In this document: in pieces, positions 481 to 38,857 of the stretch
Position numbering within the stretch: position 1 is the stretch's first letter
Layout: every line of letters starts with the position of its first letter
IMG/VR virus record: IMGVR_UViG_3300030098_004015
Span: 1 to 42,991 of that record
Reading direction: 5' to 3' (one strand)
DNA length: 42,991 bases
Source of the DNA: a virus
The notes under the pieces: generated by a model
What the model was told of the DNA's origin: nothing
Database searches by the model: none
The model's input: the letters and a program-made list of their open reading frames with translations, nothing else
Made by a program: the position numbers and the translations under genes

Positions 481-3400
481 TTATCTAATTAAGGAACTAG
501 TTTCCTTTTTGCCCTTTGGGCCGCTATAAAAAATATTTGCTATATCTTTCTTTGCCTCTGCAAATGGAGATACTTCATACCTCATAGTTTTTATTGCTTG
601 TGACGAACCAGCTTCTCCATAAGGCCCTGTACGCCTAACCTTATCACCTCTTACTGCTTCATAAATCATTCTATTAGCATTTTTCATTGTACTATAAGAA
701 GAAGGAACAGCGGTGTAATTAACAAATCTTCTTAAATCTGTTGTAACAAATACGTCATGAGAAAGCTTTTTAAGTGTTCTAAGGGTTTGTGTATCTGGCT
801 CATCATCATCTTCCATCATAGCAATTAAAGACAATAAAGTAACTCCTATACCTATACCAGCAGCATGATTACGCATTTCTCTTTTTCTTTGATCGCTAGA
901 ATTATTGTATATATCTATTATTTCTTTTTTAGTTATTCCTCCAGCAAAATATTTTCTAAACAAGTCTGTTATGTATTCAGAGCTAGCCCTATAACTTCCA
1001 ATATTAACATCTCCAAATCTATCTATATCTTCAGCTCTAAATCTATCTTGAAATAATGTAATAAACCATTTTTTAAATTGCAACAAAGCTCTACCATAAG
1101 AATACATAGAAAGTAAACTAGCGTCTAACGCTGTATATCCCTCACCATGAAGTGTAGATATTTTGTGATTTATATGCATCACTCTTTCTTCTGATATTTT
1201 ACCAGACGTAAACTCTTGATCTGTTAGCATTCCTAAGAAAGCAGCCCCCTGTATATACCCTTCTGTTTTGTCCATAAACATATAAGACCACCTTTCTATT
1301 TTACCAAAAGGACCCTCTTTTTCAGAGAGATGTATAAACTCATCAAAACTATATTCAACAATTCTATACTTTTTTAATATATTTCTTGATGCAAAAAGCT
1401 CTTTCCAGTACCTCTCCTCTCCCTTCATAAACTGTTTTCCTCCACGTTTACGCAACTCTTGATATTTACCAGCAAGCGTATTACCAAGACCAATAGTCAT
1501 ATTAAATCCAAGCAATCGTAGTGATGTTAGTCTTACAAATCCATCTATCACCTTATCTCCTGTCTTTCCAAAGATTCCAACTTGCTCTTTCTTTTCTAAG
1601 AACCCTTCTTTCCACCATCCAGTCAAATATCTAACGGCATTTTTATTATCTAGATTTTTATTAAATCCTATAATAGAGTCTGTTAATATTGCTAGATCTC
1701 CCATTCCAGTGAAACGGTCTTCTCTTTCTACTACAACCCCATCTTCCATTTTATACAGGCCTTCTCCATTTGCAAATATATGCCCTCTAGCAAATTCTAT
1801 TAATGTATTATTAATATCATAAGAAATGTTTTGAGCCTTAACTCCTTTTCTTCTTTCGTATTCTTGTATTAATTCAGCATCAATATCACTTACCTTATCA
1901 TAGCCAATCATTCTTTTAAGTATCGCCCCATTATTTACTAAAGCATCGTATTCTGCGTCAGACAACATGATTTTACTACCGTCTTCGTGTTTGCCTTTAT
2001 CTTTAAGCTGCTTAGCCTTTCTTCTAAGCTTTTCTAATTCAAATATTTGTTTGCCAGAATCTAATGTTAATTTGCCTGTTCTTCCTTTGTAAACATCATA
2101 TTTCCATTCATAAAACGTTTTTAAAGCCCTATTTCCATTTTTATCTGTTCCGTAAACCTTAACCCTACTATAGTCGTGTGAATCAATAGAAGTGTTGTAA
2201 AGGCCGAATAAACCGCTTCTTGACATACTTTCTACATTACCCATTTGCATTCCAGGAACTATAGTTTTTCCGTCTTCAGAGCCTAATAGTATTTCAGCAA
2301 TAGCTTTATATCTGATGTAATATTCTTCTTCTTGTTTTGTTAATTCTACTCCGTTTTCTATTATTTCTTCTTCAGTAAATAATCTAACATTACCATTTTC
2401 TACAGTAGCTATATTGCCATATATATATTGATAACGAGCATTAGTGTCAAACTCTTTTCTAATTCTTTCTAATACAGAAAGACCTCTCATTTTTGATCTT
2501 ACTAAAGCTCTATTCTTTTCTTCTATTAATTGCCTGTGCTCTTTAAAACTTCTCATATACTTTCTATATTGTATCTGAGCTTCATTAATTAAGTATTGTA
2601 TTTCAGGCCTTTTAGATGTCATATTATTAGAACCCAACCATGCTTGGAAATTAGTTAAATCCTCTTGGGCAACACCGTCTTCTCCAGGAATATTATATTT
2701 ATATCCTTTACTAGCACCAACATTTTTTAAATATTCAGCTTGGTCTCTAAATGCTTTTTGTCCTATTTCTTTTTCTATTTGATAGGCTATGCCTTTAGTG
2801 GCAGAATTATCCATCTTTCTAAACTTTCTACCCACATCATATAGTCCCTCTATAGTATATTTGCTTAAAGGTTTTTTCTCTAATGTTGCCTCAAACTCTC
2901 TAACCAATCTTAAGTCTCCTCTATAGTCATTATATTTTTCAGTGAGTATTCTAAATGTTTTAGACTCTTCTTCTATTTTGTTTATATCTATACCTTTATC
3001 AGCAACCCATTCTGGGAAAGTCATAAACTCAACGCCACTTCCTAAATAATCATTATTATAAGATGTATCGGCAGTAATAATCTTTTTCGCTTTTTTAATA
3101 GGAATTTCAAAACTATTATTGTCCTTAGACCTTTTGCTTATTTTTTGCAATAACGTATATTTATTTTTACCAGCCCTACGTCTTTCAACATCTTTTATAG
3201 CGTCTTGTAATTCTACAGGAATAGCCCCTGTTGAATAATCACCTTGTTTATTTTGATTGTCTTCTATAATTCTAGACATTTCTTCGTTAATTCTTTTTGT
3301 GTATTCATTATCAAAAAATGGTACAAATGATGTTGCTTTACCAGCACCACCAGCTAAACCAAAACGATTAAATGTATGTTCTATTTCAAATATTAAATTT

Positions 3401-6400
3401 TTCTCTGCTTCAGATAATTCAGCAAACGATTCTTTAATTTGCTCTATAGCTTTATAAGAAGTGAACTCTGTTATCTCTGCTCTATTTAATACAATATAAT
3501 TACCCTTATCAGATACTTGAATAACATTATCTAAAAAGTAATTTCCTTTTCTACGTTCTTGTAGCGCTTCAAATTCTTTAATTAATTCAGTTTCCCCCTT
3601 AACATCACTAAGCATACTAAATTCTTGTCTTAAATTATTTGAGATAACCTGATTAATAACTTCAGACTTCATTTCTCCTAATTTATTTAATTCGTTTAAA
3701 ACAATAGGATTTGTCAATATGGTCTGCATATAAGGAGTATACCTTATATCTGTTCTAGAAGCCCTTTGTAATATAGAGTCAAATAAACCAGTGGCATGCT
3801 CTATAATATTATTGGTTTTGGTTTTCTCTGTAAAAGAATAATCTAATCCCATCTTACCTAACAATGGAATTCTAACTAACCCTTGCGCTTGAGCGATACC
3901 CTCTCTAATTTGCCTTAATTCTAGAGGATTTTTTTCAATACTTTGATGAACAGTAAATGCTTTAGATAAAGGATCTACAGCAGCCTTCTTAAATTTATCT
4001 AAAGTATAAAGCATTAATATGGCTTGCTTTTGTATAGCTTTAGAATTTTTTAAACCTTTTAGATCTATATTAATAGCGGGGTTTTTAACAAAGTCCTTTA
4101 TATTTATATTGCCTAAACCATTATCTTTAGCAAACTTTAATAATTGATTTTCATTCATACCGTCTTTCTGTATGAACATATCCATTATATCACTATGTTT
4201 AGATATATAGTCTTTACTACTATTTCTTTTAGACTCCATATATTTTTTAACTATAGGGGAATTAAATAAGACAGCTAAGTCATTTAGTGAGTATCCAAGT
4301 CTTCTAAGTAGTACAAACGGAAACACACTTTGCATATCTAATCCTAGCTTACTAGCATATTGATGTTTGGCGTTATCTAATGCTATATTAAGTAGTTGTG
4401 CTACACCATACCAATTACCTACGCCATTTTCTAAAGTAGCGTCATCAAAGAATGTTTCTCTTGTTACAGCTTCGCTTTCTCCTTTAATAGTAATAGCAAA
4501 AGGCAGTACATCTCTACTATTTGAAAATACATTAAATGATCTTTGTAATGCAGCAATCATACCAACTAAATGTTTTGCTGGAACATTATCTTCAAACATT
4601 TGAGCATCACCCCATGGAGTTAACTGAGAATCAGTATCTTTTAATGCCGGCACTTTAGCGATAGCATTTTCAGAATCAGAAACAAAATCAATATCAGCTT
4701 GTATTTCTTTTTGTATTTCATCTTTACTTGCTAATTCTACATACAAATCAAAGAACTCATTAGAATCTTTTCTCCATCCTTTTTCAGCAACTTCTGTTTC
4801 TGTCCATTTAAAATTCATGTGTACAGAGTCGCCATCTAAATCGGCTCCCCAGTTTTTACTCACCCATGCAGGTATAGTTACATTAGATGTAGGAGAATCT
4901 CCAATTTGTTTATGGAAGTCTTTTACTACAAATATAGAACTACTTACTTTACCGTGAGCAGGAACTCTTGTTCCAATAAATAAATCTCCTTTTTTAACCC
5001 CTTGCTTTCTTAAATATCCAGGAACTATTGCTTCAGAAGCAACTACATTTTCATCTCCTTTGTATAATCCTTTTTCATAAGATCTTAATCCCATGCCTAA
5101 ACTAGAAGACTGATACCCTATAGATCCTTTGGTATACATCTTTGTTCCTTTATGTGTAATACGTCCTGTTGCTACAGCATTATGAACAGCATTTAAATAA
5201 GGATATCTAGGATCAAGATTATCATATGTATTATCTACAAGAACATCAAACACTTCAGCAGTTACAGAAGATTTAAATGAATCTCTTTCATTAAACACTC
5301 CTTTCTCAGTTGCCTTATCATTCATAATAAGATCTCTATTTCTACTAGAATTATTAGACTCCATTACATTTCTTCTAAGCTCCAGCATTCTATTTATAGT
5401 TTCTCTATTCTCTTCATTTATATTGGTTAATAAATTATAGAATAATTGAGAAGGGAAAAATCTTTCGTCTGTTTGTTTATCTAACTCTAATTGTATACCA
5501 AGGCCTTCTCCTGACAACCCTATATATCCAGTTTCATCTGAATATATTTCGTCTTGCTTAGCCATTATATCAGCCATATTATCAGTTGTAGTTATATCAT
5601 ATATAAACTCACTTCCTCCTGAATATAATTTAGCAGCGGATTCAGATGAGGCTATAACCAAATTACCAGGAGCTAAAGCATCAACCTCTCCTTTTCTTGT
5701 TCTAAGAACTTCTCCTATATTTTTTAAATAAGGGCTTTTAGCTTCTAACTCTGGAGTTAATGTATGTACAGCAAACTTCATATAAGTGGTTCTTCCTTTT
5801 AAAGGCCCTTCTAGTTGCGTATAATGATATACAAACTTAAATACATTACCTACTTTTTGAGACTCTCCATATTTAGCTCTAATAAATTCTGCTTGTTCAG
5901 GCAATATATATCCCATTGCGTCGTTCTCAATAGCAACGTTGTCTTTCCAATTATCACCAAATTCTTTTTTAGCTTCTTCTTCTGTATAAATATTCCCCTC
6001 TTTATCTTCATAAAAATCTTTAGTTACTATAAACTCTACAGAAGAGTTTCTATCAAACACTACATGACTAGCAATTGATCCAGCAGCACGTTTAATATAG
6101 TCTACTTGATTATTAGATTGCCTATGGTCGTGTACAAATAATTGTTGAGCCATAAACTTGTTAGCTATATATGAAGTTAAAAATGCCTCTACCGCCCCAT
6201 CTTGTAATATGCCTTTATTTAAAGCGGTATTATTTATAAATAATTCTTTATTGTTTATAGCATATTCTCTCCATTGCTTTTTTAGCTTTGGCATTTCTTT
6301 TATCTTATTCTTTTCAATAGTATAAGGGAATATACGATCACCATTTTTATACTTAGCATTATAAGCAGGATTATTTTTAACTCTAGATAATAACGCTTTT

Positions 6401-9400
6401 CTACTTTTAGTATCAATAGCTGCTATACTCTCTATATAATATCTTCTACTTTTATCTGAAAATACTGCGATAGGTTGATCATATAAAATAACTTCTTGCT
6501 TATTTTTAATACCTTGATTATATTTATTTAAAAACATAAAGAAATCTCCCGCTATTAATTCATTAGGATTTACATCATTTAATACCTTAGCTCTTCCTTC
6601 TTTATTTTTAAGACCAACAGCATTGTCAATAATACGTCTCATCATGCCAGAATGAACTGTAAGATGGAATGTTCTTTTGCCTTCTGTATTTTTATTGCGA
6701 AATGCCATCTGACTATATATATTATTGTCACGATGCATAATATCGTTTTTATCTAATTCTATTTCTTCATTAAATATTCGCTCTACATTTTTAAGTCTAT
6801 TATGTAATCCATTCTCTTTATTCATTATACTAACGCCATCTTGCTCTACGTTATCTACCATTGATAAATAGTTAACACCTCTAGATGCAACCAGGCCTTG
6901 TAAAAGAATTGTTTTTAATTCTCCTTGTGTTCCGTGAAATAATCCTAATACCTTGCCATTAACATCATCAGAAAATCCTACTTTTTTATTTTTATATTTT
7001 AAAAAATTTTGATAGCGCATTATTGGGCCAAACTTTGTTTTAGTATGACTAAATAATATGTCCGTTAAAGACTGTCTTTTTCCTTTAAATAATATTTCTG
7101 TATTTAATAAAATATTTTTATCAATTAAAGATCCTCTTGGATTATCATTTAATAAAACATCTAATACTTTATAAGCAGCATTATATCTATCATTTTTACT
7201 TTTTGGGTTTCTTTCAAAGAATAACTCATTATATATAGCAGCAATTTCATCTACTTTCGTCTTATTTCCTTTTATTTCTTCAGCAATATTAGCAACCACA
7301 CCTTGCTCTATAGTTGCATTAGTACTTGCATATCTAGTCCAATATCTTTTTCCATCATCTCCAATAGTTAAGACATTATGCGCAAGAACTTCTATATTAA
7401 TACCTTCAATAGGGCCTTTAATTTCCATTAACTTAGCATTAGTAAGAACCTTATCATTCTTATATACTCTATCTAATACATTTAGCATTGCCATTATATT
7501 AGGATTAATAGAGGTTCTAAGTAGGTTAGGGAAATCCATAGGATTCTCTCTTGTATCTTTTGCTAAAGACATAAGGGTGGCTAACAAGTCTTTTGTTTTA
7601 ATCTGATCGTCTTCTCTATGATTATGTACCTCTACAATCTTTTTAATAAAATTAGTTGTAGTAGTAGGTAGCGCAATAGCTTTTGTTAAATCATCATATT
7701 TATCCACCTCATTAGTAGTGCTTTCGGATTCTCCAATTACATCATCACCAGATTTTAAACTAATACCAATCTTAGCTAATTCTTTATCTAATATAGTGTC
7801 TGCTTGTTTAAGAGTTTGTGGCCTTTTAAGTTGTGTTATAATAGCTTTAATATATTCTTTAGTATCTTTTATTAATTCGTCTTTAATATCTAAATTAGAA
7901 TCGTCAGCTATAGCTTGCATTACTCTATCAGCAATTTGTTCTGGCATTAAATTACGGCCTATAAAATCTCCTATATAAGATGATACAGCAGCATATGAAG
8001 TTGCTTTTTGAAATGGTTTTTTCTTAGCCCTATTAATATCTCCATATGCAGAGTTCATCATATATGGAACAGTTCTGTCAGCAGAATTAAAATTAAGTAA
8101 TACTGCTTTCATAGCGTTTTCTAAATCTAATGAGGCTACGCCTTCTACAGTAAGATCTAATATTTGCTTAGCTTCTTCATCTGTAGCTAATTTTTTAGCT
8201 TCTTTATAAAATTCTATTAAATCTTTTTCTAATCTCTTTTGAGTGGCAGAATCTTTTATAACAGCATCTGCTCTACCATATGAATAAGACTCTAATGCTC
8301 TTGTAAACGTTTCTTCAAGTAAATGTTTTTGTTGATCTATTCTAACATCTTTAGCACCATTAACCTTTAATTGTGTTCTTAAAGATAAAAACAATTCGTT
8401 TATTCTAGCGCTATCTCCTGCCTTTTCAGCAGCAGCAATATTATTAGTTATATCTATTATATCACTTGTATATCTTTCTCCGTCAGAGCTATTAAGTATA
8501 TTTCTATACATAGCCCCTAAAGTAGACCTCATGCCTTTAAAGCTCATTAAAATAAGCTCTGGATAATCTTGCTTGGTTTTTTGATATAACTCTGATTTAG
8601 GTAAAAGCTTTTTAATTCTTTTCATTAACGGAGTATCTTCCATTAAACCATAATAGATATGTCCAGCTTCATGAATTATATCTGTTTGTGCCACTGAATC
8701 TATATTAATAAATACAGTAGATCCTATAGCTAAAGAAGATGCTTCTTGCCCATAATCATCTATAAGTTTTGTATAAGACAATACTCCTTTTGCTCCAGGA
8801 AACTTTTTATTAACTATATCTCTTACTATAGATGCAGCCATAACTCCAGAACCATATTTATATAAAGGCCTTATATCTAAAACTGTAGGCTCATAATTAG
8901 GTATCTCTGATTGACCTCTAGTAAAATATTTTTTAATATTTTCTTTAGTCTCTTTTATGGCTCCTATTAATTTATCTATCTTACGCTGATCTTTCTTTTT
9001 AGCTTTTTTTATAGGGCCTTTGTCTTCATAAAATTCTTGAGTTGCTTGTTCCATTTCTCCAATAACTTCTCCATCAACAACAACTTCAATTTTACTTTCA
9101 TAAAGCGGAGCTCCTTTTTTAAATTGAAAATATAATTTACCGTCTACCTCAACAACATTAGCTTGACCAGCAACAGGCTCTACTAAACGTAATGTAACGT
9201 TTTGCATTTCACGAGTATACTTTTGTATATCTACTTTACGATCAGCAAAGAATTTAATTGATTTACCAGCAGCTGTTTTAATTATATAACTTAAGGCTCC
9301 TGCCTTTTTCCCCATCATTTTGGATATAGAAGCAGCGAAAGGTTTTACACCTTTTCCTTTTAATGCTTCTTCTGTGTCTTTATACTGCTTGGTTTTGGGA

Positions 9401-11916
9401 ACTACTTGAGATTTATCTTTTTTTTTTACGTCTTCTTGAGACTCTTTAGTAGTTTTTTGTTCTGCTTTTTTTTCTTTTCTTATGGCGCTTTCTGCATCCT
9501 TATTATTTATTTTGCCGCCTCTACCACTACCTTTTATTTTTTCAACACTCTCTGGAGATATATCCCCATCTTCTAAAGCTTTTATTAATCTCTTTTTAGC
9601 TCCAGAAGTCATGTTTTCATTTTCTTTTACTTTTTCTATAGCTTTATCTACTTCTGCTTTAGCTGCTTTAGCTTCTATTTCTGAAGCGGGTTTAGTCACT
9701 CTATCTACTACTCCTTGCACTCCTTTAACAGCAGCAGCCCCTACATCTTTAGCCGTTTGAAGCGCTTTTGTTCCTACTTCGGTTAAAGTTTCTCTTAATG
9801 TCTTTTTTGGTTTTGCAGCTTCTTCAGCAGCTTTTGCTTCAGCTTCTGCCTTTTCTCTTTCGGTTTTTTGTTTTTCGCCTTCTTGTGTAAAGGTTTCAAA
9901 CTCATCTTTACTCAAACCTTCTTTTTTATATCTAGCATCTCTTTTTCCAGTAGATTTAGCAGTAGGAGCCTTATCTACTTCTGCTGTATATATGTCCTCT
10001 ATTGACTGCTCAATCTCAGCTAATTCTTTTTGATGCTGCTCCATAACTTCATTATGAGCGTCTTCCATCATTTTTAATTTAGCTTCAAGTTTCTTTTTGT
10101 CTTTAATTACAGTCTTTTCATGAGCAACAGCATCTTCATATGAAGCCTTTTCTTCTGCCATTTCTCCTTCTTTACGAGTCTTTTTCATCTCATTATAAAA
10201 AGCTTGCTCTGCCCCAGCCTCAGTTAAAGATGTGTTAACGTGATGCTTTGCATAGTCTTGTTCGGCTTGCTCTATCTTTACCTTATATTCATTCCCTTGT
10301 TCTTCGGTAATTTTATTGTCTTTAACTAAATTATCCACAATAGACATAGCGGCAGAACCGTCTCCTGAGTAATTCCAAATATTAGAAGCCAATAAATTAT
10401 CTATAGCTCTTTCAAGCGCTAATTGCTGATCAATACTTGCGTCTTCCATAGATTCGGAAAGCAAGTCTATTACGTTATTATAAGAGTCTATCTTTTTATC
10501 AATTAAAGCTTGTCTTTCTGCTATTCCATCAAAATAACCTCTAACACCACCCATAGCGCCACCTAATCCAACAGAAGACCAAAATATATCTCTAAGCTCT
10601 GGCCTGTCTTCTCCGAAAGGAGCTTCTTTTAACCACACACTCATAGGTTCATAATCCAATCCTTTTGCTTCTTGTATATTTTTATATTTAGCCCACTCCT
10701 GGTATACTTCTTGATAGGCTTCTGTAACTCCTTCAATACCAGCATAAGCCCCAACAGCAGTCAGATTTGGTTTATACCTTCTAATTACACTGCTTATCAA
10801 TCCTTTTGCATTTTCTCCTATTGCTGTTTTTTGCACAGGATTTCTTAACACTCTGCCCATTATCCCTCTACCAGCTCCTCCAAATAAAATACCATATTGT
10901 AGTATGTCTACCCCCATCCATTTGGCATTATCTCTCATAACTCCAGCAGCTTGTTCTGCGGCTTCTTCTGGAGAAAACATTGGCTCTCCAGTTATTGGGT
11001 CTACTTCATTAGCCAACTCTTGATAAGCCTCACCAGCTAAGTAAGCCCCCTCAAATATATTAGCTGTAGCACCACCACCTATATATCCAGTAACATCTCT
11101 TAAAAGCTTAGTAGGTGCTATTCCTTTTTTTCCAGCATCTACTCCAAGATATCTCATAAGACCTGTTCCTTTCTTTCCTTTAAATGCTTTAGACCCAGCT
11201 CCTGTTAATTTTACTCCTTTATTCATTTGGCCTAAAACTTTTGTCCCTTGCATATATTTTAAAACTGTTGGGCCTAACCTGCCTAAAGCAAGTCCTGCTA
11301 ATCTAGCGCCTCCAGCATAAGGGATTAAAAATGAAGCAGCATAAGGAACTAGTCTTGCTACTTTAGAAGACCAGAACTCACCCTTGAACATGTCGTCCCA
11401 AGTTACATCTTGCAAGTCTTCCGATAAAATTAAAGCATTTTCATTTTGATATTCTGTTCCAACTTTTTTAAGCCAGGATCCAACAGCTGTAGTTAACTCT
11501 CCTTCTCCTGGGGTAACAAGAGCTGAAATAAAATCTACAGTATCTCCAGTTCCAGAAACCAAGTCTCCCCATCCTGCTTTTAAGGCTCTAGCAGTTCTTT
11601 GTCCTGTAGACCCTATCATAGCATGAGGATCTGTAATAGCCTGATCGGATTGACTAAATCTATCCATTTCAGAAAACAATTCGTCTTGAGTTCTTTCGGC
11701 AGCCATACCTCCAGCTATACGATCAAGACGCACATCATCTATAGTGCTGGACTGTATTGAATTTTCTATTAACCCTCCTAATCCTTGTGGGGTTTCCGCC
11801 ATTTTTTCTTCATATAAGCCTTTAATTTCTGATTCAGGAGATTGTGGTATTGGATCAGGTTTTGTTACTCCTCCCAACAATATATTAAGACTTGAAGTAT
11901 AATCGTTCTCTGCCAT
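481..11916 (-). CDS. Giant virion protein: candidate DPBB-type RNA polymerase with zincin metallopeptidase motif (3811 aa)
   Basis: Seen: residues about 180-230 and 440-470 are Gly/Ala-rich and hydrophobic; about 570-850 is a charged K/E coiled-coil region; HEAGH at 1082-1086 (bases 8659-8673) is a gluzincin-like HExxH motif; R2317-x-P2319 is followed by ADLDGD, with DLDGD at 2359-2363 (bases 4828-4842); the last ~350 residues hold further hydrophobic stretches (about 3465 and 3690). Known: the DxDGD triad binds the catalytic Mg in the beta'-type double-psi barrel, and in E. coli beta' an R-x-P motif lies 35 residues before it, against 42 here. crAss-like phages package a giant RNA polymerase of this class. 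Inference: an injected polymerase for early genes, fused to a peptidase and membrane-active ends. I could not place the beta-type barrel. The start codon overlaps the upstream stop as TAATG. Confidence 0.7.
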   Translation of the reverse strand: MAENDYTSSLNILLGGVTKPDPIPQSPESEIKGLYEEKMAETPQGLGGLIENSIQSSTIDDVRLDRIAGGMAAERTQDELFSEMDRFSQSDQAITDPHAMIGSTGQRTARALKAGWGDLVSGTGDTVDFISALVTPGEGELTTAVGSWLKKVGTEYQNENALILSEDLQDVTWDDMFKGEFWSSKVARLVPYAASFLIPYAGGARLAGLALGRLGPTVLKYMQGTKVLGQMNKGVKLTGAGSKAFKGKKGTGLMRYLGVDAGKKGIAPTKLLRDVTGYIGGGATANIFEGAYLAGEAYQELANEVDPITGEPMFSPEEAAEQAAGVMRDNAKWMGVDILQYGILFGGAGRGIMGRVLRNPVQKTAIGENAKGLISSVIRRYKPNLTAVGAYAGIEGVTEAYQEVYQEWAKYKNIQEAKGLDYEPMSVWLKEAPFGEDRPELRDIFWSSVGLGGAMGGVRGYFDGIAERQALIDKKIDSYNNVIDLLSESMEDASIDQQLALERAIDNLLASNIWNYSGDGSAAMSIVDNLVKDNKITEEQGNEYKVKIEQAEQDYAKHHVNTSLTEAGAEQAFYNEMKKTRKEGEMAEEKASYEDAVAHEKTVIKDKKKLEAKLKMMEDAHNEVMEQHQKELAEIEQSIEDIYTAEVDKAPTAKSTGKRDARYKKEGLSKDEFETFTQEGEKQKTEREKAEAEAKAAEEAAKPKKTLRETLTEVGTKALQTAKDVGAAAVKGVQGVVDRVTKPASEIEAKAAKAEVDKAIEKVKENENMTSGAKKRLIKALEDGDISPESVEKIKGSGRGGKINNKDAESAIRKEKKAEQKTTKESQEDVKKKDKSQVVPKTKQYKDTEEALKGKGVKPFAASISKMMGKKAGALSYIIKTAAGKSIKFFADRKVDIQKYTREMQNVTLRLVEPVAGQANVVEVDGKLYFQFKKGAPLYESKIEVVVDGEVIGEMEQATQEFYEDKGPIKKAKKKDQRKIDKLIGAIKETKENIKKYFTRGQSEIPNYEPTVLDIRPLYKYGSGVMAASIVRDIVNKKFPGAKGVLSYTKLIDDYGQEASSLAIGSTVFINIDSVAQTDIIHEAGHIYYGLMEDTPLMKRIKKLLPKSELYQKTKQDYPELILMSFKGMRSTLGAMYRNILNSSDGERYTSDIIDITNNIAAAEKAGDSARINELFLSLRTQLKVNGAKDVRIDQQKHLLEETFTRALESYSYGRADAVIKDSATQKRLEKDLIEFYKEAKKLATDEEAKQILDLTVEGVASLDLENAMKAVLLNFNSADRTVPYMMNSAYGDINRAKKKPFQKATSYAAVSSYIGDFIGRNLMPEQIADRVMQAIADDSNLDIKDELIKDTKEYIKAIITQLKRPQTLKQADTILDKELAKIGISLKSGDDVIGESESTTNEVDKYDDLTKAIALPTTTTNFIKKIVEVHNHREDDQIKTKDLLATLMSLAKDTRENPMDFPNLLRTSINPNIMAMLNVLDRVYKNDKVLTNAKLMEIKGPIEGINIEVLAHNVLTIGDDGKRYWTRYASTNATIEQGVVANIAEEIKGNKTKVDEIAAIYNELFFERNPKSKNDRYNAAYKVLDVLLNDNPRGSLIDKNILLNTEILFKGKRQSLTDILFSHTKTKFGPIMRYQNFLKYKNKKVGFSDDVNGKVLGLFHGTQGELKTILLQGLVASRGVNYLSMVDNVEQDGVSIMNKENGLHNRLKNVERIFNEEIELDKNDIMHRDNNIYSQMAFRNKNTEGKRTFHLTVHSGMMRRIIDNAVGLKNKEGRAKVLNDVNPNELIAGDFFMFLNKYNQGIKNKQEVILYDQPIAVFSDKSRRYYIESIAAIDTKSRKALLSRVKNNPAYNAKYKNGDRIFPYTIEKNKIKEMPKLKKQWREYAINNKELFINNTALNKGILQDGAVEAFLTSYIANKFMAQQLFVHDHRQSNNQVDYIKRAAGSIASHVVFDRNSSVEFIVTKDFYEDKEGNIYTEEEAKKEFGDNWKDNVAIENDAMGYILPEQAEFIRAKYGESQKVGNVFKFVYHYTQLEGPLKGRTTYMKFAVHTLTPELEAKSPYLKNIGEVLRTRKGEVDALAPGNLVIASSESAAKLYSGGSEFIYDITTTDNMADIMAKQDEIYSDETGYIGLSGEGLGIQLELDKQTDERFFPSQLFYNLLTNINEENRETINRMLELRRNVMESNNSSRNRDLIMNDKATEKGVFNERDSFKSSVTAEVFDVLVDNTYDNLDPRYPYLNAVHNAVATGRITHKGTKMYTKGSIGYQSSSLGMGLRSYEKGLYKGDENVVASEAIVPGYLRKQGVKKGDLFIGTRVPAHGKVSSSIFVVKDFHKQIGDSPTSNVTIPAWVSKNWGADLDGDSVHMNFKWTETEVAEKGWRKDSNEFFDLYVELASKDEIQKEIQADIDFVSDSENAIAKVPALKDTDSQLTPWGDAQMFEDNVPAKHLVGMIAALQRSFNVFSNSRDVLPFAITIKGESEAVTRETFFDDATLENGVGNWYGVAQLLNIALDNAKHQYASKLGLDMQSVFPFVLLRRLGYSLNDLAVLFNSPIVKKYMESKRNSSKDYISKHSDIMDMFIQKDGMNENQLLKFAKDNGLGNINIKDFVKNPAINIDLKGLKNSKAIQKQAILMLYTLDKFKKAAVDPLSKAFTVHQSIEKNPLELRQIREGIAQAQGLVRIPLLGKMGLDYSFTEKTKTNNIIEHATGLFDSILQRASRTDIRYTPYMQTILTNPIVLNELNKLGEMKSEVINQVISNNLRQEFSMLSDVKGETELIKEFEALQERRKGNYFLDNVIQVSDKGNYIVLNRAEITEFTSYKAIEQIKESFAELSEAEKNLIFEIEHTFNRFGLAGGAGKATSFVPFFDNEYTKRINEEMSRIIEDNQNKQGDYSTGAIPVELQDAIKDVERRRAGKNKYTLLQKISKRSKDNNSFEIPIKKAKKIITADTSYNNDYLGSGVEFMTFPEWVADKGIDINKIEEESKTFRILTEKYNDYRGDLRLVREFEATLEKKPLSKYTIEGLYDVGRKFRKMDNSATKGIAYQIEKEIGQKAFRDQAEYLKNVGASKGYKYNIPGEDGVAQEDLTNFQAWLGSNNMTSKRPEIQYLINEAQIQYRKYMRSFKEHRQLIEEKNRALVRSKMRGLSVLERIRKEFDTNARYQYIYGNIATVENGNVRLFTEEEIIENGVELTKQEEEYYIRYKAIAEILLGSEDGKTIVPGMQMGNVESMSRSGLFGLYNTSIDSHDYSRVKVYGTDKNGNRALKTFYEWKYDVYKGRTGKLTLDSGKQIFELEKLRRKAKQLKDKGKHEDGSKIMLSDAEYDALVNNGAILKRMIGYDKVSDIDAELIQEYERRKGVKAQNISYDINNTLIEFARGHIFANGEGLYKMEDGVVVEREDRFTGMGDLAILTDSIIGFNKNLDNKNAVRYLTGWWKEGFLEKKEQVGIFGKTGDKVIDGFVRLTSLRLLGFNMTIGLGNTLAGKYQELRKRGGKQFMKGEERYWKELFASRNILKKYRIVEYSFDEFIHLSEKEGPFGKIERWSYMFMDKTEGYIQGAAFLGMLTDQEFTSGKISEERVMHINHKISTLHGEGYTALDASLLSMYSYGRALLQFKKWFITLFQDRFRAEDIDRFGDVNIGSYRASSEYITDLFRKYFAGGITKKEIIDIYNNSSDQRKREMRNHAAGIGIGVTLLSLIAMMEDDDEPDTQTLRTLKKLSHDVFVTTDLRRFVNYTAVPSSYSTMKNANRMIYEAVRGDKVRRTGPYGEAGSSQAIKTMRYEVSPFAEAKKDIANIFYSGPKGKKETSSLIR

Positions 11917-13979
11917 TATCTATTTTGTTTGCCCATTATTGCTCTTGATAATTTTCTACTAGCAAAATATGTTTTTTCATCATAATTACTTCTACTATAT
12001 TCTTGGTAATTTCCTGTTTTTATAGCTCTTAGCATAGCTTCAAAGGCTGGATTACCAGATATTAATCCTTCTGTTAATATTTTTGTGCTATACGCCATAT
12101 ATTGTCCAGGAGAATTTGCTATCATTTTTTTATTAACATCTGTTTCATTTGGTGTAAAATCATAAGGATATTCTCTTTCTTGCAGTGAATCTATATATAA
12201 ATCCGACATTATTAAAGGAACCGCTTGCTGTACCTTAACAGACGGCACTTGCGACAATCCTAAGCTTACTGTTAATTTTTGATCATAACCAGATATTAAT
12301 TCGTCTACACTTTCGGGATCTTTCATATTTAGCATTTTTGCTAATTTAGCATCAGCTGCTATTTGTTTTTTCTCTTTATATTTTCTATTAGCTTCTTTTT
12401 GCTCATACGTGGATGTTTGTTCTAAAACCTCATTTAGATTCTCTGGATTTATATTTTTATTAATCCTGTCTAATACCGCATAATCACCTAAATCTAATTC
12501 TTTATAATATACCTCGTCTTGTGTAAGAACATCATCATCAAACAATTCTGCTATTATAACTGGAGTGAATTCTATATTTTTATATTCTTTTTCTAGTTTT
12601 TTTCTATCATCTTCATTTGTAACGTCAGTTAGCAAGATGTGGTCTCCGTTTCTATCAATTCCTTTAAACCCGACAAAGTAGCCGTTTAATTTTAAATCCA
12701 TTTCATCTTCTTCTCCCCATAACTCTCCCTTTCCTAACATATTCATAAACCATCCTGCGTCTGCATCTGTTTCGTCTAATGTTATTTTATGTCCTGTTTT
12801 ATCATATAATCCAGCCATTTTCACATTATCAATCATTCTGTCTCCAGAATTATACTTAGGAACTCCGTCTTCACGATCTCCAAATACAGCTCTAGTTATT
12901 TGGTCCTCTATACCTTTATCAATAAATACACCTCCAGAGCTAACCATTTGCCTTCCTTTTGTAAGACCTCCATAAGCGTCATCTGAATAATCAAACGGTC
13001 TAGCATTAGGATCATAACCACCAAATCTTTGGAAGTTTTGCCCCAAACCAAGACTATTATAATATTTTTGGAATGTTTCTTTATTGTCTAAATTAAAATT
13101 ACTAAAGTAATCTGACCCTGTAACAAGACCTGCGGCATCAGTGGCCTGTAACATATCTTTTATCTGGCTATGCGCATTAGTATCAATCTCTTTTGATCCA
13201 AACATAGCTTCGCCACCAAAAAAGCTTTCTCCAGCTTTAAGCCCTGGTGTTACTTGTAGTTCTTTAGAGAGCCATGCCTTCATCTGGCTTCTATCAAATG
13301 TAGTATTTGGATCGGCATTCATATCATTAATCATATCAGAACGAATTGCTAGTTCGTTATCATTAATTATATCGTCTAAATCTATTCGGTCAGATATATC
13401 CCTAGCTTTTATAGTTTCGTCTAAATAGTCTTTTCTAGCGCCATAAAATATAAAATTATCTGTTGTACCATCCAGAAACTGTTGATATCTTTCTTTGCTT
13501 CCCTCTGTTAGTAGTTTATCATTTCCATCCTTATCTAAAGCATAAGAATGAAACAACTCTAAAGATGCTTTATTTTTATTAACCCTTCTTGATATAGGGT
13601 TGTCTGTTAATTTAGCTCTGTATTCTGCTATTAAATAATCTAGATTTCCATATAGCCTGGCATTATCTATAGAGCCGTGTTGTCTTAACACTTCTTGTAT
13701 GTCTCCCCATCCCGACATAGTGTTATGCCAATTCCTAAAATCATCTACATCTTTTTGTCTAGAAAAATTATTTTTTGTATATAAATCCTGTTGTGCTGCT
13801 TGCACAATAGTGTTAAGCTGTCCCTGATACTGTTCTTGTCTTTGTAATTGAGCTAATTCTTGATTACGTCTTTGTTGAGCAAGCTGCATTTCCTGCAATT
13901 GCATTTGCCGTCTATTTGCTTGTATTTGACCAGCTTGAGCCAAAGGCCCAGTTAATGCCTCAAAAAGTGTTGCATCCAT
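11916..13979 (-). CDS. Candidate internal virion (ejection) protein, 687 aa
   Basis: I do not recognise a named family. The first ~75 residues are Gln-rich and helical (many QMQLQEMQLAQQRR-like turns), like the N-termini of phage internal core or ejection proteins; the rest is charged, soluble and mixed alpha/beta, with no signal peptide or membrane helix. It lies between a transglycosylase-bearing virion protein and the giant polymerase-like gene. Its stop shares one base with the giant gene's start (TAATG), which suggests coupled translation of proteins made together. In short-tailed phages, this position downstream of the tail hub normally holds the cargo proteins that leave with the DNA; that role here is inference. 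Confidence 0.75.
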   Translation of the reverse strand: MDATLFEALTGPLAQAGQIQANRRQMQLQEMQLAQQRRNQELAQLQRQEQYQGQLNTIVQAAQQDLYTKNNFSRQKDVDDFRNWHNTMSGWGDIQEVLRQHGSIDNARLYGNLDYLIAEYRAKLTDNPISRRVNKNKASLELFHSYALDKDGNDKLLTEGSKERYQQFLDGTTDNFIFYGARKDYLDETIKARDISDRIDLDDIINDNELAIRSDMINDMNADPNTTFDRSQMKAWLSKELQVTPGLKAGESFFGGEAMFGSKEIDTNAHSQIKDMLQATDAAGLVTGSDYFSNFNLDNKETFQKYYNSLGLGQNFQRFGGYDPNARPFDYSDDAYGGLTKGRQMVSSGGVFIDKGIEDQITRAVFGDREDGVPKYNSGDRMIDNVKMAGLYDKTGHKITLDETDADAGWFMNMLGKGELWGEEDEMDLKLNGYFVGFKGIDRNGDHILLTDVTNEDDRKKLEKEYKNIEFTPVIIAELFDDDVLTQDEVYYKELDLGDYAVLDRINKNINPENLNEVLEQTSTYEQKEANRKYKEKKQIAADAKLAKMLNMKDPESVDELISGYDQKLTVSLGLSQVPSVKVQQAVPLIMSDLYIDSLQEREYPYDFTPNETDVNKKMIANSPGQYMAYSTKILTEGLISGNPAFEAMLRAIKTGNYQEYSRSNYDEKTYFASRKLSRAIMGKQNR

Positions 13980-13981
13980 AT

Positions 13982-16351
13982 TTATTCTTCTTCTTGTGTT
14001 TGGTTATTTCCTCCTAAATTGCCTAATTGATCTTGATTTAATAAACCCATATTAACTAATGGATTATATAAGCTTGTTCCTCCTTGAGCAAATTGATTTG
14101 CTATAGAGCTAGAATTAGCATAATTACTCATAAGAGATGAAAAAGCTGCTGAAGTAAATCCAGCTGCCGCTTTCTTATCAGCTAACTGTCTTGCCATATC
14201 TTCAGCTCTTTGTTGTTCTGTTCTTTGTATATCAAAGTTTTCTTTAAAAAGCATCATTTTTTCATACTTATCCTGATTGGCAGCTTGTAGCTCTTCATCT
14301 TTTGCTGCGTAATCTAAAAGAGCAGCAGATCTTTGTGCGTCTAATACTCCTGACTGAGCCAAAAATCTAGCCCTTTGTCCTCCACTTCCTCTTACTGCAT
14401 TCTCTAATCCTATTTGGTAGCTCTTATCTAATTCTTTTCTAAACTTTTTTGCCTGTTCTGGATGGAATCCTTTTTTAGCCAACTCTCTAGTTTGCCTTAA
14501 ATGTTGCATAAACATAGGAGAAAGCTCTGGGCTTTTTTGAGGCTCTACTTCTTTCATTGCCGCCTCTAGTCCCTTTTTACCCATTATATATGAGATAATA
14601 GCCCCAGGACCTCCAATTTTATCTAAAAGAGCTCCAGCGCCTTGAAATACAGCGTCTGCAACTCCTGCTATTTTACCTGCGGTTGTTTGCTTTTGTTCTA
14701 CACCCGTGTCATCTGCTAAAACTGGATCTGTCTTTTGTTCAGTAATTTTTACTTCTGGGTATTCTCCACCTATAGTGATTGGGTCTTCAGGGGTTGATAT
14801 ATCTGGATCTCCAAATCCTTGTAACGTTGTTCTGGTAGAAGCTAAATTTTTTAAGTCATCTGGACCAATAATATCAGCTCCTTTTGAGCTTTCTATAATT
14901 TTATTTGTAAAATCTGGATTGTCTTGAGACGCCTTTTCTATAGCTAAGATTAAATTTTTATGGTCTTGCAAATAAACAGGATTATCAAATACAGTTTTAT
15001 AATTGTCTGTTTTTTCAAAAGTATAATTTCCTCCTTTTTCGTTAATCGTTCCTATATGAAGTTGATCCCCTGTGTTAGGATCTTTATATATAAGCTTATT
15101 GTTTTCAAGCTGAACAACCACCTGTCCTTCTTGATTTTTAAACTCAGTAAGGCCTTCTCCTATAGAGCCATCTAAAGTATAACCTCCTATAGTATTTAAT
15201 TCTTCTTCGTTTAAAGAAGTTTGCCAATCAAGCAATTCTTGACTTTTTGACCCTCCTAAAGAACCATAATCCATTATAGATCTTTTTGTAACATTTCCAT
15301 TTTTATCCACCCATAATGGATTTTGTTTTGCTATTTTACTATCAGCCCCTCCAATAATATCGTCTAATCCCATTTGTGCTGCTGCTGGATATGCAACAGT
15401 TATATATGGATCTTGACCTGCTGTGTGGTTTTCAGTAAAATACTGATCTACTAGATTTAATTGCTCTAAAGAAGACATTTCTTTAATGTCGTCTAACTTA
15501 TATTGAACACCGTTTATTGTTTTATAATCTCTTGTTTTTGTCTTTCCCTCTTCTTCATATAAATCTCCATAAAACTGAATTAATCCTGTAGCCCCTCCTT
15601 TTTTATTTCTTGCTTTAGGGTCAAAATTAGATTCCTTTTGTATAACATTTAAAAGATCAGCACTTGTAAATCCATGTTTTTTAGCTATATCATCAACTTT
15701 AGCAAGAACGCCTTCTTCTGCTAAGAATTTTTTTTGATTGTCAAGGTTTTCAGTTTTTTCAATCTTTTGCTCTTCTTGTTCTACAATATTATAATCTTCT
15801 GCATTTAAACTTTCGTTATATTCATCTAGCGGTCTGTATTGGCCATCATCAAATACATATACGATATTAGTTTCATTGTTTTTATAAAAAGCGCCTTGTT
15901 TTGCTTGATCAGGAGTAGGAATGGTAGTTGATGTGTTTGGCTCTAATTTTATGGTAGGTTTATATCCTTTTACAGGCTTTATATACTCCTGTTCTGTAAT
16001 TGGAACTTTTATATTTCCTACCTGCTCTCCCTTCCATTTAGGAGACGACATATTATAGAATGCTGGTTTTTCAGCCCCAGCGTCCTCTAAATAAAATATT
16101 TCTTTATTCTCACCTGCCAGAGCAGGGATTACATATCTATTATTTATCTCTTGATATACTGGATCATCTTTATCTACAGGTGTAGTTGACCCTGTTTGTG
16201 ATGTAGAAAGACTTACGTTTAGCTTATAGTCTGATTTATCTTCATTCCATTTAACCCTAACATAGTAATATTTTTGTTTTTTGGTATGCCAAATATATCC
16301 TTTCCAGTCTTTGGCGTCTGGATATTTATATGTAGTTTTTTCTTCTGCCAT
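13982..16351 (-). CDS. Virion protein with lytic transglycosylase (SLT) domain, 789 aa
   Basis: The N-terminal ~210 residues are low-similarity and charged. Residues about 215-345 form an SLT/goose-lysozyme-like domain: QKESNFDPKA holds the likely catalytic Glu (E240), followed by GATGLIQF, the usual second SLT motif, and a Tyr/Ala-rich helix (ITVAYPAAAQMGL). The last ~270 residues resemble phage internal proteins: a small hydrophobic Gly-rich segment (about 575-600), then a long Ala/Gln-rich helical region and an Asn/Gln-rich tail. Known: virion-carried transglycosylases open the peptidoglycan during DNA entry. The gene sits two bases upstream of the 687-aa gene and shares a TAATG junction with the gene before it, so all three are one translational group. 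Domain call is strong; virion location is inferred. Confidence 0.8.
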   Translation of the reverse strand: MAEEKTTYKYPDAKDWKGYIWHTKKQKYYYVRVKWNEDKSDYKLNVSLSTSQTGSTTPVDKDDPVYQEINNRYVIPALAGENKEIFYLEDAGAEKPAFYNMSSPKWKGEQVGNIKVPITEQEYIKPVKGYKPTIKLEPNTSTTIPTPDQAKQGAFYKNNETNIVYVFDDGQYRPLDEYNESLNAEDYNIVEQEEQKIEKTENLDNQKKFLAEEGVLAKVDDIAKKHGFTSADLLNVIQKESNFDPKARNKKGGATGLIQFYGDLYEEEGKTKTRDYKTINGVQYKLDDIKEMSSLEQLNLVDQYFTENHTAGQDPYITVAYPAAAQMGLDDIIGGADSKIAKQNPLWVDKNGNVTKRSIMDYGSLGGSKSQELLDWQTSLNEEELNTIGGYTLDGSIGEGLTEFKNQEGQVVVQLENNKLIYKDPNTGDQLHIGTINEKGGNYTFEKTDNYKTVFDNPVYLQDHKNLILAIEKASQDNPDFTNKIIESSKGADIIGPDDLKNLASTRTTLQGFGDPDISTPEDPITIGGEYPEVKITEQKTDPVLADDTGVEQKQTTAGKIAGVADAVFQGAGALLDKIGGPGAIISYIMGKKGLEAAMKEVEPQKSPELSPMFMQHLRQTRELAKKGFHPEQAKKFRKELDKSYQIGLENAVRGSGGQRARFLAQSGVLDAQRSAALLDYAAKDEELQAANQDKYEKMMLFKENFDIQRTEQQRAEDMARQLADKKAAAGFTSAAFSSLMSNYANSSSIANQFAQGGTSLYNPLVNMGLLNQDQLGNLGGNNQTQEEE

Positions 16352-17556: not shown

Positions 17557-20500
17557 TTAGTATGTTTTTCTATACTTTGCAAGTATTGCAAAGATATTAA
17601 ATTTTTCTGTAGTTTTTGCTGTATATTTTATTTTTGCATAAGTTCCTCTTGTTCTATGTGTGCTTTTTTCTGTTCTTAAAGGAGTTCTTAATACTCCGTC
17701 TATATATTTATGCGCCTTTAAGCCTCCTATTTCTATCCAATCAACTTCAAATTTAGAAGAGTCATCTTTTGAAAGACGAACCCATATTTGCTCAATAATA
17801 CAGTCGTCCCATCTGCCGTTAGCATCTCCAGCTCCAGACATGTCCCATTCAATAATTATAAATCCATCATCTATTTCTGATCCTGGCTCAGCTATTACTC
17901 TTGATCTTGCATTATTATTATTTAAAAATAAATAATCTCCTTGTTTTCTTCTTATAGGATCATATCCTTTCCATTGTATACGACCGTCCCATCCTACTCC
18001 TGCAACTAGTCTTTTAAGCCTCATCCTTATTATATTATTGTATTTTCCAGGAATACTCAAATGCTCTCCTTTTTCTGGGCTTAAAAACCATCCCGCCCCT
18101 GTATATTCTAAAGTTACAGAAGATCCCGTTAAAGATGTTTTTAAAAGATCTCCAACCTGCCATTGTCCAGCAGCTGCGCCAGAATTTCTTCTTCCGTGAG
18201 AGTTTCCTGTTCCAGCTGTAGGCGTGGAGTTAACATTTGTAGAATCCCACAACTTACATTCTCCTGACCACACCACAACCCCAGTACGTTCTTGAATTAA
18301 ATTTACAACAGTATTATTCCAGTCTGAATTACCCAACATAGTATTCATTGTAGACTCATCAAAAAAGAAATATTTACCATCAAACATCGCGCCCCCTATA
18401 TAATTAATACTTGTAACAGGAGTATTTAGGCCTGTATTTATAACAGGAGTAGCTGACATAGAATAATCATCAACATAATCTTCATAGAACTTCCATCCAT
18501 CATGCGTTTCATTAAAATCCCATCTTCTATTTATTACCAATTGTTCTGTTTCGTCTATTAATTCTGTTTTATTATCTATCGTATTTTTTGTTTTTATAGT
18601 ATCATGAGTGATGTCTGTAGTATAATCTATAAAGCTATATTCCACGTGCTTTGGAGTCATTACATTTTGTACGTTATCAAATATCTTACTGTTAGCTGCC
18701 TCAGAATTTATAATCTTTTCAACATAACTTTCTTCTGCTACATATTTATTTCCTGCATGCGTTGGCACTATAGGATGTATTTCAACATTACTACTGGTAG
18801 TTTCAACAGCTCCAGTTATAGGAGAGGTAAAGCTACTAAGCCTTTCATAAATATCATCTTTTTTTCCAAAGAAATTAGTTTTAATTTGCTCTTCATGTTT
18901 ATCCCATATCCATAATCTTAAAGGGTTGCATCTTCTGTTTTTGAAAAAATAAGAATCATTACTTCCGTAAGCATAATAAGGCACATTAGTCCAGGTCCCA
19001 GAAAGCCCGTCATCTTGATCAAAATTAGATATTGAGTTAACATTAATCTCATTTTCTGGAGACAATATAAAAGATCCTTGTCCTCCCGCAAGCCATTGAG
19101 GCGGAGCCACACTATATTTAGAGGTAAAGGCGTTTATAGCCTCACTATAAACTAACGTTTCTGATATTCCTACTGGCTCTCCATCTAAAGCATTACCCAT
19201 AGTGTGGTTGTCCCAAGGCCTTGCAAACACTTGTCTTTTTTTGTCTTTGCTAGCCCAAGCAGAATTATGAAAAGTAACTAATAATTCTTTATTTTTAAAA
19301 TCATATATAGAAGTTATTCCTAAAAAGTTTAGCGGATTATCTGATAAATAATTTCTACTATCTGTTGGTTTTTCTATACTGTCTAGCATCCCCTGAAAAT
19401 TTGGATGTGTAGTATGTCCGCTAACTGTACACGCCCTAAACGACCTTTGCTCCCATTCCTTAATTATGTATTTTAAATAATTTCTTTGGCCTAAAGCATC
19501 TCCTAAAGAAATAAGTTTTTCTGTATCATACTTAAATAGTCTGCCGAAATTACTATCAACAAAATATAGTGATTTTTCACTCATTGCTACGCTAAATCTA
19601 TGTCTTGATCCATATTTAGTTGATATATAAATATGATTTTCTACTGTTTCTCCTGTGCCTGTAAATAATGAAGTTCCCGCGTCATCACTTAACATAGACA
19701 TTGGATTTACAAGAAGCTTTGAAAAGGCGCTATCTTGTAATACATATATTTCATTTTTAAAGTTTATTATTCTATTAATCTCTCCATAAAGACCCTCCAT
19801 ATCATGAAATTGATTAATAGGAAATTGCCTAAAAGCGTCTGACTTTTGCCCTAGTATTTTTGTATTAGAATAAGCAATTTCATATGGCAAATTTAAACTA
19901 TCCTCAAAAGTCTCTTCGTCAACTAGTAATCCAGATTTTATATTATTCTCTTGTGAATAAATACTATTATAAAGCCAATCATTGCTATAAGGAGCTTGGT
20001 TCATATCTTTTCCTACTACTGTATCACCCGCATTTAATGTTAATCCACTTCTCATATCTGTATTTACATAAGATTCTACAGGGAAAATTTGCCATCTAGC
20101 AGCAGATTTTTTCATATACGGAGCAGATGTTTTTTGATGAGAATATAGATTCACAAAAGTATCTCCGCCAAACACTTGAGATACATGGCCTTGAGTTACA
20201 TTTGTAGAGTCTCCTACACGATGAAAATTACCACAAGGAATATATCTTGTTTTATCTATAGCTCCCTTGTTATACCCCCCATAAGGAACCACCTTTCTAA
20301 CTATAGAACATAAAAATTTAAAAGGAACTTTATCTCCTCCAGCTGGTAGTGTTTGTTTTATTCCGTTTCCTGGGTTTTCATCTCCTATATTAGTATTAGC
20401 TATACCTCTTTGTGCGTTTGCGTTTAACCATCCCGACCTTAACGGATATTCACCAGCACTATTATAACCGCCAGCCACGTTACCTCCAGAATTGTTGCTA

Positions 20501-23500
20501 TTGTCTACGCCCAGAAATTCTCCTTGCTCGCATAAAGCTGATATATTAAATGGGGCAAACCAAGCGCTATAATGTCTTTGAGGGCGGGTAGCGCTTTCTC
20601 CAAGCGCCTCAAAAAACGATGTATCAGGACCACTCTTTTTTACTACAGAACATCTATTATCTATTTCAATTAAAATACTTCTTAATCCCATTTGTAGAGT
20701 AGATACTGTGTCGTAATTATAATCTTCTTCTTTTATTGTTGTTTGCTGTCCATCGCTTGCCAACATGCCTTTATTTGCAGGAAGATCTTTTCTTACGGCA
20801 CCAAAAGCAAAGTTTCTTGTAATAAGCGAATTGTAGGAGTTATTTACATATGTGCTTTGACCATCTGGGATATTAGCATGTTGATTTACAAAGCCCAAAG
20901 TGTTATTTGAAAATCCTGAAACCAGACTTTCTTTTACTTTACGAGATATCTTAAAAAATCCATTTGGAACTATTTCTCCATCAGAAATTTCTTTTGCGTT
21001 AGATATAGGCAGGGACCATCCGTAATTCCGATTAGGTCTAGTGTTAGAATCTCCCTGGGGGTTATTACAAAAAACCTTTCCGCCTTCTAATTCCCATCCC
21101 ATACCCATATAAGGTTCATACGAATAATATTTTCCTATAAGAATACTATAATCTTTATCTATATTTTTTCTAGTACAAAAAGCCAAGCTTTTTTCCATGG
21201 TTTGATCAGTGCTAGTGGGCTTCCAGTTTTCATTTCCACTATTATAGTTCCAATGATGAGTTGTTTGCTCAGAAGTAGTTAAGTCTGATTGAGTTTTGTG
21301 CTGACAATGAGAGTAGAACGAAAAAGGATTATTACTCCCGCCAGGACGATTTTCATATCTAACCTCATCAGTTAATTTTAAAATATCATCTATTCTTAAT
21401 ATATCTCCTTCTCTAGATATGTATGGTCTTATTCCAAACGCACTATCAGGACTGTCTAAAGTAAAAACTGTGCCGCTAATGTGTTGGTGAACTTGCGCTA
21501 AATTACTTTCATTTAAAACGTTTGAGTCAAGGTGAGAAGCTCTGAATTGAGATAGCTTATCATAACTTCCAAAATAACCACTATGCCTAAAGTGATTTCC
21601 ATATGTTCCAGGTCCTCCCGCACTAGTATTAAGACCTGTAAACCTAGCGTGTCTAGCCCCGCCTGAGTTATAATATTTAGCATCTTCTCTTTCTGGCCAG
21701 TAAAACACCGTTCCGTCTGTATTTCCTCCTGCGGTTACCTTACCGTCAGTTACGCTTGAATCATAAAAAGCCATATGGGAGGTTTCGGCTAAACCTAAAT
21801 ATCCATTCAAATAAACATTATATTCAGGTTGTTCTGTAAACGTTGGATTTGGACCTGAATTAGCGCCTCCATTATCTATATATTGATTAACAAAAACAGG
21901 ATCATCTCCAAAAGCCTCATTGTCTTTTTGAGAAAATCTGGAAACTGAGTAGCCGTATTTTGGTCCTAATTTTGCATTTCCATATTGAGCCGTTTGATTT
22001 AATAATCCTTGTTGTATTATTCTTCTATCTTCTTCATTTCTTTGCGCTCTCACAACCCTAAATCCTGATATTTTTTTACAAACTTCATCTGGAATAAGGA
22101 ATTCAAAATTAACGCATAAGTCAAATAAATAGTGAATATCATCGTGTAGACCATCAGCTCCTGCTCCTCCTGTATCGCCATCCATAGCTGGAACCGCTTT
22201 CACTTTTCCAGAATAAGCATTATCTTGAGTACCATCATTAGGAAGTGTCCCTCTTGGGTTTCCATCACTTTTTACATATGCACTTAAGTCTTTGTAAGAA
22301 GTAGAAATTCTACCAGAAAACCATTCTACATCTACTGGAGGAACAGTATGGCCATAAACAAATGATAATCTAAAATCTCCTATTTTTTCATGAGACACTA
22401 TCTGTTTAGCGTCTACCAGGCTTATTGCTCCATCAGGGCTAACCGTACCGCTTGGCGTTGGCCTAAATGGCGTATAGCCTCCAGAACCTACATTAGCATC
22501 GTCTTTGATGTTAATCATTCTATTTAAATCGTGCTGATGAGGTGTTTCTATATCTCCAATCCACAATACATTACCAGGAGAACCATTTAAATCATATACC
22601 TGTACTCCAAATCTATAAACCTCCCCTCTTTGATATCCTCTTCTGTCTCCAGCTAAATGAGGGTCTTTTGATCCTCCTAAAGACATAGATGTTTTAAATA
22701 CAGTATTGCCCGAAGGAGACGGGGCTGTTCCAAAAACAGTTGAATAATCAGTTTGCAATGTCTCTCCAGTACTCACCGAAGAGATATAAGGAGATGTAAA
22801 TGCATTTTGAGAAGTATCTGCAATTTTTTCCTCTAATCCAAAAGACACACGACATCCGCCTAATCCATTGCTTGCATAATTAAAACTTTCTGCTCCTAAA
22901 GTCATTCTGTCAGAAAGATATTTATATAAAAAGAGTGTTTGATATTTTGCATGACCACCACTTGCTGCTCCTCTTTGGTTTTCTATAGCCGTTGTCCACA
23001 TAGGAGTATTTATAGTTCCATCATAATTAAAATGATCTTCATTTGATGTGGCGGGATACATTCCGTTTGGATCTCCTAATAATTCTCCATATCCACAACG
23101 AAATCCGTGCTCATCCAAAACACCGTATTCGTATTGAGCGCTATTAATTTCTACAGGATCTCCGCTGGCATTTGCTTGATAATGTTTTATTGTAGGATCG
23201 TTAGTAGTTAACATTGCGTCTAATATAGAGCTGTTACCAGCTACTCTTCTATATCTTAAAACTTTTACATTCCATTCTTTTTCAGAAATAAAATTTCTTT
23301 TTTGTCTTAAATTAGCAGCAAACAATATATTGTCTTTGATTGCAATATCTTTACATACATCAAACGTATTAGATTCTATTAATATTTCTTCTAAACCATT
23401 TTCTACTTCGTTGTTCCAGCTTGTGTGCTGAAAAGAAACAAGGGCTCCGTCTACTTGATTTCTAGCAACAATAGAAACTCTTGGAGGTGAATTTTGAGAA

Positions 23501-38585: not shown

Positions 38586-38857
38586 TATTTTGTATATTCA
38601 AGTTTTACTTTAAATATATACCTTAGTTCGCTTAACCCTTCAGTGTTAAAGTCGTTTATTATTGTTTGAACATAATAATGAGGATTGGGCTCAAGGTGCC
38701 AACTAGTGTTTATCACTTTAAAGCCATATTTTTTTGCTCTTTTTTTAATAACAGGCTCATCGTCCATTAATCCTCCCAAATCTTCATATACCTTTTCAAG
38801 ATAATAATAATCATCTTTATGGTATATTTTTCCTATATTTTCATCTAGTTCTTTCAT
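38585..38857 (-). CDS. Small unknown protein, 90 aa
   Basis: Charged and Tyr-rich (IYHKDDYYYLEKVYEDLGG) with a C-terminal strand pattern (HYYVQTIINDF, LRYIFKVKLEYTK). No family recognised. It overlaps the preceding 764-aa gene by 4 bases (ATGA type) and abuts the next with TAATG, so translation is coupled through the cluster. Confidence 0.55.
   Translation of the reverse strand: MKELDENIGKIYHKDDYYYLEKVYEDLGGLMDDEPVIKKRAKKYGFKVINTSWHLEPNPHYYVQTIINDFNTEGLSELRYIFKVKLEYTK

Follow-up and report, generated by a model that had tools for sequence, protein, structure and literature searches.

A giant protein of an uncultured crAss-like phage with the predicted features of a virion-packaged two-double-psi-barrel RNA polymerase

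The window analysed here, the 42,991-base IMG/VR virus record IMGVR_UViG_3300030098_004015 (a fragment of about 43 kb), encodes a 3811-aa protein that is very probably a virion-packaged, single-chain RNA polymerase (RNAP) of the two-double-psi-barrel class from an uncultured crAss-like phage, acting as a whole by the mechanism proposed in the last section. The open reading frame (ORF) of this giant multidomain protein starts at an ATG, occupies positions 481–11916 of the minus strand and has full-length relatives in IMG/VR. Its residues ~1880–2603 are a catalytic core homologous to phi14:2 gp66, as shown by computation. We infer that the protein is packaged in the virion and active as a polymerase, and the phage probably injects it along with its DNA; the terms virion and injected are used here because of the gene neighbourhood and the homology.

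Sequence conservation of the catalytic core

An earlier note, made from the DNA sequence alone, had proposed a two-barrel RNA polymerase on account of an R-x-P motif and a DLDGD motif separated by 42 residues. Translation of the minus-strand ORF confirms R2317-V-P2319 (positions 4960–4968, minus strand) and D2359-L-D2361-G-D2363 (positions 4828–4842, minus strand), with exactly this distance between R2317 and D2359. The latter is the predicted motif binding the catalytic magnesium, and the protein has no other DxDxD. Taken alone, D.DGD would be weak evidence for a polymerase and occurs in 6.75% of composition shuffles of the protein, while R.P(25-60)[SA]D.D.D turns up in 0.4% of them; none of 2000 shuffles had the family-style pattern R[IV]P..G..S...[SA]D[FL]D.D. 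Conservation of the motifs in relatives is stronger evidence than these shuffle statistics.

Scans of IMG/VR revealed 25 contigs with close relatives (about 43–84% identity) and one distant relative, L064 (23%). The full-length relatives have ~3700–4110 aa, counted stop-to-stop, and carry an upstream HExxH as well as DLDGD, and R[VI]PxHGK...WGADLDGD is kept in every close relative covering the motif region. L064 is an intermediate lineage that retains R-L-P and DHDGD. Its ORF (1218–12095, plus strand, at least 3626 aa) has DHDGD in place of DLDGD and is devoid of HExxH. In another contig (L027, 3300030012_002541) a frameshift around positions 2205–2227 interrupts the RNAP ORF and ~12 residues are missing, possibly an assembly error. 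The ORFs following the RNAP ORF in three further contigs (L020, L026 and L033) begin with secretion-type signals of the MKKI...AQ kind, which are reminiscent of Bacteroidota proteins. No relative was found in bacterial and archaeal genome contigs, so that no hint at the host comes from there.

Neither the 3811-aa protein nor its core produced a single-sequence or profile match above threshold in Pfam, PHROGs or the PDB sequences, and tblastn of the protein against phage records gave nothing better than E 0.1. Among these matches, the one to p-crAssphage (KP06_gp44, annotated as RNAP catalytic subunit; E of at least 0.1) spans the stretch from R-x-P to DLDGD. The profile search against crAss-like RNAPs that the earlier note had suggested was more telling. 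When the window-family profile was compared by hhalign with a set consisting of phi14:2 gp66, Kolpuevirus 'frurule', DAC15 and p-crAssphage gp44, it matched with Prob 96.9 and E 1.3e-10 over 654 collinear columns, pairing D2359 with gp66 D1361, and none of the control crAss proteins g065, g067 and gp45 matched the RNAP core significantly. Likewise, hmmsearch with the window-family HMM retrieved several crAss RNAP ORFs at E 1e-5 to 1e-6.

When the crAss RNAP alignment served as query, 80 crAss-like RNAP loci were retrieved, the phi14:2 genome among them. An alignment of 62 RNAP regions was assembled from the window family and crAss-like phages including phi14:2 gp66, the crAss-like rows being 15–18% identical to the window protein. 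Thirteen columns are invariant over all 62 rows (D1999, K2027, K2047, K2096, Q2142, Q2157, G2264, R2317, P2319, G2357, D2359, D2361 and D2363), and in each of the sequences the DxDxD is preceded by R-x-P in register. The conservation of the three aspartates anticipated in the earlier note is thus found, along with that of the upstream lysines. R2317 and P2319 align with gp66 R1322 and P1324, and the three aspartates with D1361, D1363 and D1365. K2027 (positions 5836–5838), K2047 (5776–5778) and K2096 (5629–5631; all minus strand) align with gp66 K1012, K1027 and K1065, respectively. All three lysines are placed tentatively in barrel B, K2047 and K2096 as candidate barrel-B lysines because of their alignment with K1027 and K1065.

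It is scarcely credible that the acidic DLDGD motif arose by chance or is of a calcium-binding type, and that the protein is a structural or polyvalent virion component and no polymerase. Such a reading would be in keeping with the frequency of D.DGD among the shuffles and with the lack of a matching family in the sequence databases, but the D/D/D, R, P and K residues are invariant over 62 sequences, the profile matches crAss-like RNAPs and the predicted fold matches several groups of two-barrel polymerases. A chance motif was therefore rejected, as fold and conservation both contradict it.

Predicted fold of the core

The RNAP catalytic core, comprising barrel B, barrel A and the helices that follow (residues 1880–2603; positions 4108–6279, minus strand), is supported by AlphaFold2, by Foldseek and by the profile match at E 1.3e-10. 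AlphaFold2 modelled these residues from the 62-row alignment with a pLDDT of 81.4 and a pTM of 0.79. The best Foldseek match of this model was 6vr4, the phi14:2 virion RNAP (E 1.9e-17, TMq 0.62), followed by QDE-1 (1e-7), RDR2 (1e-4) and the phage RNAP P74 gp62 (5e-4), and weaker matches included P23-45 gp96 (8h2n, E 5e-3) and the largest subunit of Pol II. Since the alignment includes the phi14:2 RNAP and its relatives, this model is not fully independent of them. A model predicted from the window family alone (14 close relatives) is independent of the crAss alignment; it was poor, with a pLDDT of 53, and its only significant PDB match by Foldseek was again 6vr4 (E 1.9e-6). Judged by the Foldseek match, the core is predicted to have the 6VR4 fold with two double-psi barrels. 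Structure prediction thereby bears out the RNAP-class fold that the earlier note had proposed, with phi14:2 gp66 as best match and QDE-1 next, and the reading as a two-barrel RNA polymerase is supported by fold, profile match and invariant residues together. Barrel A is followed in the model by a helix of 32 residues according to DSSP (residues 2436–2467; positions 4516–4611, minus strand), which lies in a region aligned with crAss RNAPs and is a candidate bridge helix.

The fold also bears on whether a core descended from a crAss-like RNAP might no longer serve as an early polymerase and instead have a role in ejection or structure, or act as a primase or an RNA-templated enzyme. The variant DLDGDS in place of DFDxDK and the RNA-templated nature of the nearest cellular folds, QDE-1 and RDR2, could be read in this way. 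However, every invariant catalytic residue is retained, and DxDGD is the motif used by cellular RNAPs. The nearest solved relative, phi14:2 gp66, is a DNA-dependent virion RNAP and resembles QDE-1 as well. A loss of the original function is thus very improbable, and an early polymerase remains the preferred reading.

The chance that the protein is instead an N4-type virion RNAP, with the T7-like single-subunit fold, is practically negligible. N4-type virion RNAPs are similar in size (~3,500 residues) and are injected (PMC12633501), but the fold and motifs found here are those of the two-barrel class and no T7-like polymerase is among the significant matches. An N4/T7-type polymerase was rejected, as the fold search returns two-barrel polymerases.

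Other parts of the chain

Outside the core, the C-terminal domain (residues ~3455–3775; positions 592–1554, minus strand) is common to the RNAP-associated proteins phi14:2 g065 and crAss001 gp49, with hhalign E values of 9.6e-9, 5.7e-11 and 6.2e-13 against g065/gp49. The N-terminal part (residues ~173–450, extent approximate; positions 10567–11400, minus strand) resembles the N-terminal part of crAss001 gp47 and phi14:2 g067, an RNAP-associated protein, at E 3e-4 over 253 columns; this likeness is weak (E 0.013 for g067 alone), and a gp47-like identity is suggestive only. Between these two parts and upstream of the RNAP core lies HEAGH, a zincin-like metalloprotease motif (residues 1082–1086; positions 8659–8673, minus strand). 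HExxH is present in all relatives covering the motif region, in contrast to the distant L064. The region around HEAGH matches DAC15 and gp49/gp65-like proteins weakly, and no Pfam zincin domain was matched. HExxH is located near the C-terminus both in crAss001 gp47 (residue 2157 of 2341) and in p-crAssphage gp45, a zincin (residue 1743 of 1957).

Because the C-terminus matches g065/gp49, the N-terminus weakly resembles gp47/g067 and HEAGH is found in between, the chain can be read as a fusion, collinear but shortened, of the gp47-, gp50- and gp49-like parts that crAss001 encodes separately, the gp47 step being the weakest. A bolder proposal, that this clade has a self-processing injected polymerase uniting the complete crAss transcription apparatus, with the gp47-, gp50- and gp49-like parts and a zincin, in one polypeptide, whose protease would cut it into working subunits during maturation or after ejection, appears rather unlikely.

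Gene neighbourhood

Upstream of the RNAP gene and on the same strand, the window encodes a large terminase subunit (positions 36027–37844; phrog_6681, E 4.7e-93), a portal protein (33707–36022; phrog_6547, E 1.9e-120), a major capsid protein (31011–32549; phrog_11589, matching crAss-like capsid proteins) and a relative of tail stabilization proteins of 2309 aa (17557–24486; phrog_28748, E 1.7e-59, with tblastn matches to crAss001 and others), all on the minus strand and with Crassvirales matches. The stabilization relative is much larger than the 1371-aa crAss001 gp44, and its best crAss matches cover 22–29%. A 789-aa protein encoded shortly upstream of the RNAP gene (positions 13982–16351, minus strand) contains a lytic-transglycosylase-like stretch (residues ~190–360), has PHROG matches to transglycosylase and baseplate-hub families and is perhaps an ejection protein opening the cell wall. 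Neither this protein nor the 687-aa protein upstream of the RNAP gene significantly matches the crAss001 cargo proteins C1/C2. Upstream of the terminase, ORFs of 764 and 485 aa (38854–42605, minus strand) have either no PHROG match or a weak tape-measure-like one.

Relation to known RNA polymerases

The closest solved counterpart, phi14:2 gp66 (PDB 6VR4; Crassvirales, Steigviridae), shares with the window protein the catalytic core, the motif spacing (39 versus 42 residues from the arginine to the first aspartate), the invariant Asp, Arg-Pro and Lys residues and the position of its gene after the structural genes. It differs in length (2180 versus 3811 aa) and in its DFDIDK as opposed to DLDGDS, and the identity of the cores is ~16%. 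In phi14:2, the partners g067 and g065 are separate genes (g065–g067 are annotated from MS/MS proteomics), whereas their putative equivalents lie within the window chain. p-crAssphage KP06_gp44, in turn, likewise joins an RNAP to a C-terminal part of the gp65-like kind; in that phage HExxH is also found upstream of the RNAP, but in the separate gp45. The same set of parts as in the window chain is present in crAss001 gp47, gp50 and gp49, which are RNAP-associated cargo detected in virions by mass spectrometry (PMC10172136); there, they are distributed over three genes on two strands with a total of ~6100 aa, as opposed to one chain of 3811 aa.

Outside the Crassvirales, P23-45 gp96 is a virion RNAP fused to a tape measure protein, and another part of its chain holds a metallopeptidase (PMC10770324). 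It is similarly a giant virion protein that includes a two-barrel RNAP, but it belongs to another phage lineage, has its RNAP at the N-terminus and scores weakly in the fold comparison (8h2n, E 5e-3). The eukaryotic RNAi polymerases QDE-1 and RDR2 share the single-chain two-barrel fold (E 1e-7 to 1e-4), but they are cellular, are RNA-templated in RNA interference and come without virion domains.

The earlier note had also stressed a very large, multi-domain chain. The added parts in a chain of 3811 aa bear this out, but its size is unexceptional. A review names giant RNAPs, of up to ~6000 aa, as a hallmark of the crAss-like phages (PMC10136315), and an unprecedented size was rejected in view of p-crAssphage gp44 with 4070 aa and of RNAP ORFs in other environmental crAss-like contigs, which have at least 3600–4091 aa and in some cases HExxH upstream in the same chain (for example L097 and L108). 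As giant RNAPs are established, with gp44 and these HExxH-bearing ORFs as precedents, the 3811-aa protein is a deeply diverged member of the known family of crAss-like virion RNAPs and no new kind of enzyme.

Proposed mechanism and meaning

In the proposed mechanism, one barrel would bind the catalytic magnesium through D2359, D2361 and D2363, and K2047 and K2096 on the other would contact the substrate. By homology, the protein would be packed in the capsid, pass the tail partly unfolded and refold in the host, where it would transcribe early phage genes without the host RNA polymerase. A single chain would carry the equivalents of the crAss001 gp47, gp50 and gp49 parts, and the zincin-like motif may process the chain or help its maturation.

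Taken together, these results extend the family of crAss-like injected RNAPs to a clade missed by Pfam, PHROGs and PDB sequence searches, and the 13 columns invariant in 62 sequences indicate which residues survive under deep divergence. The union of RNAP-associated parts in a single chain supports the view that these parts act together in one ejected complex.
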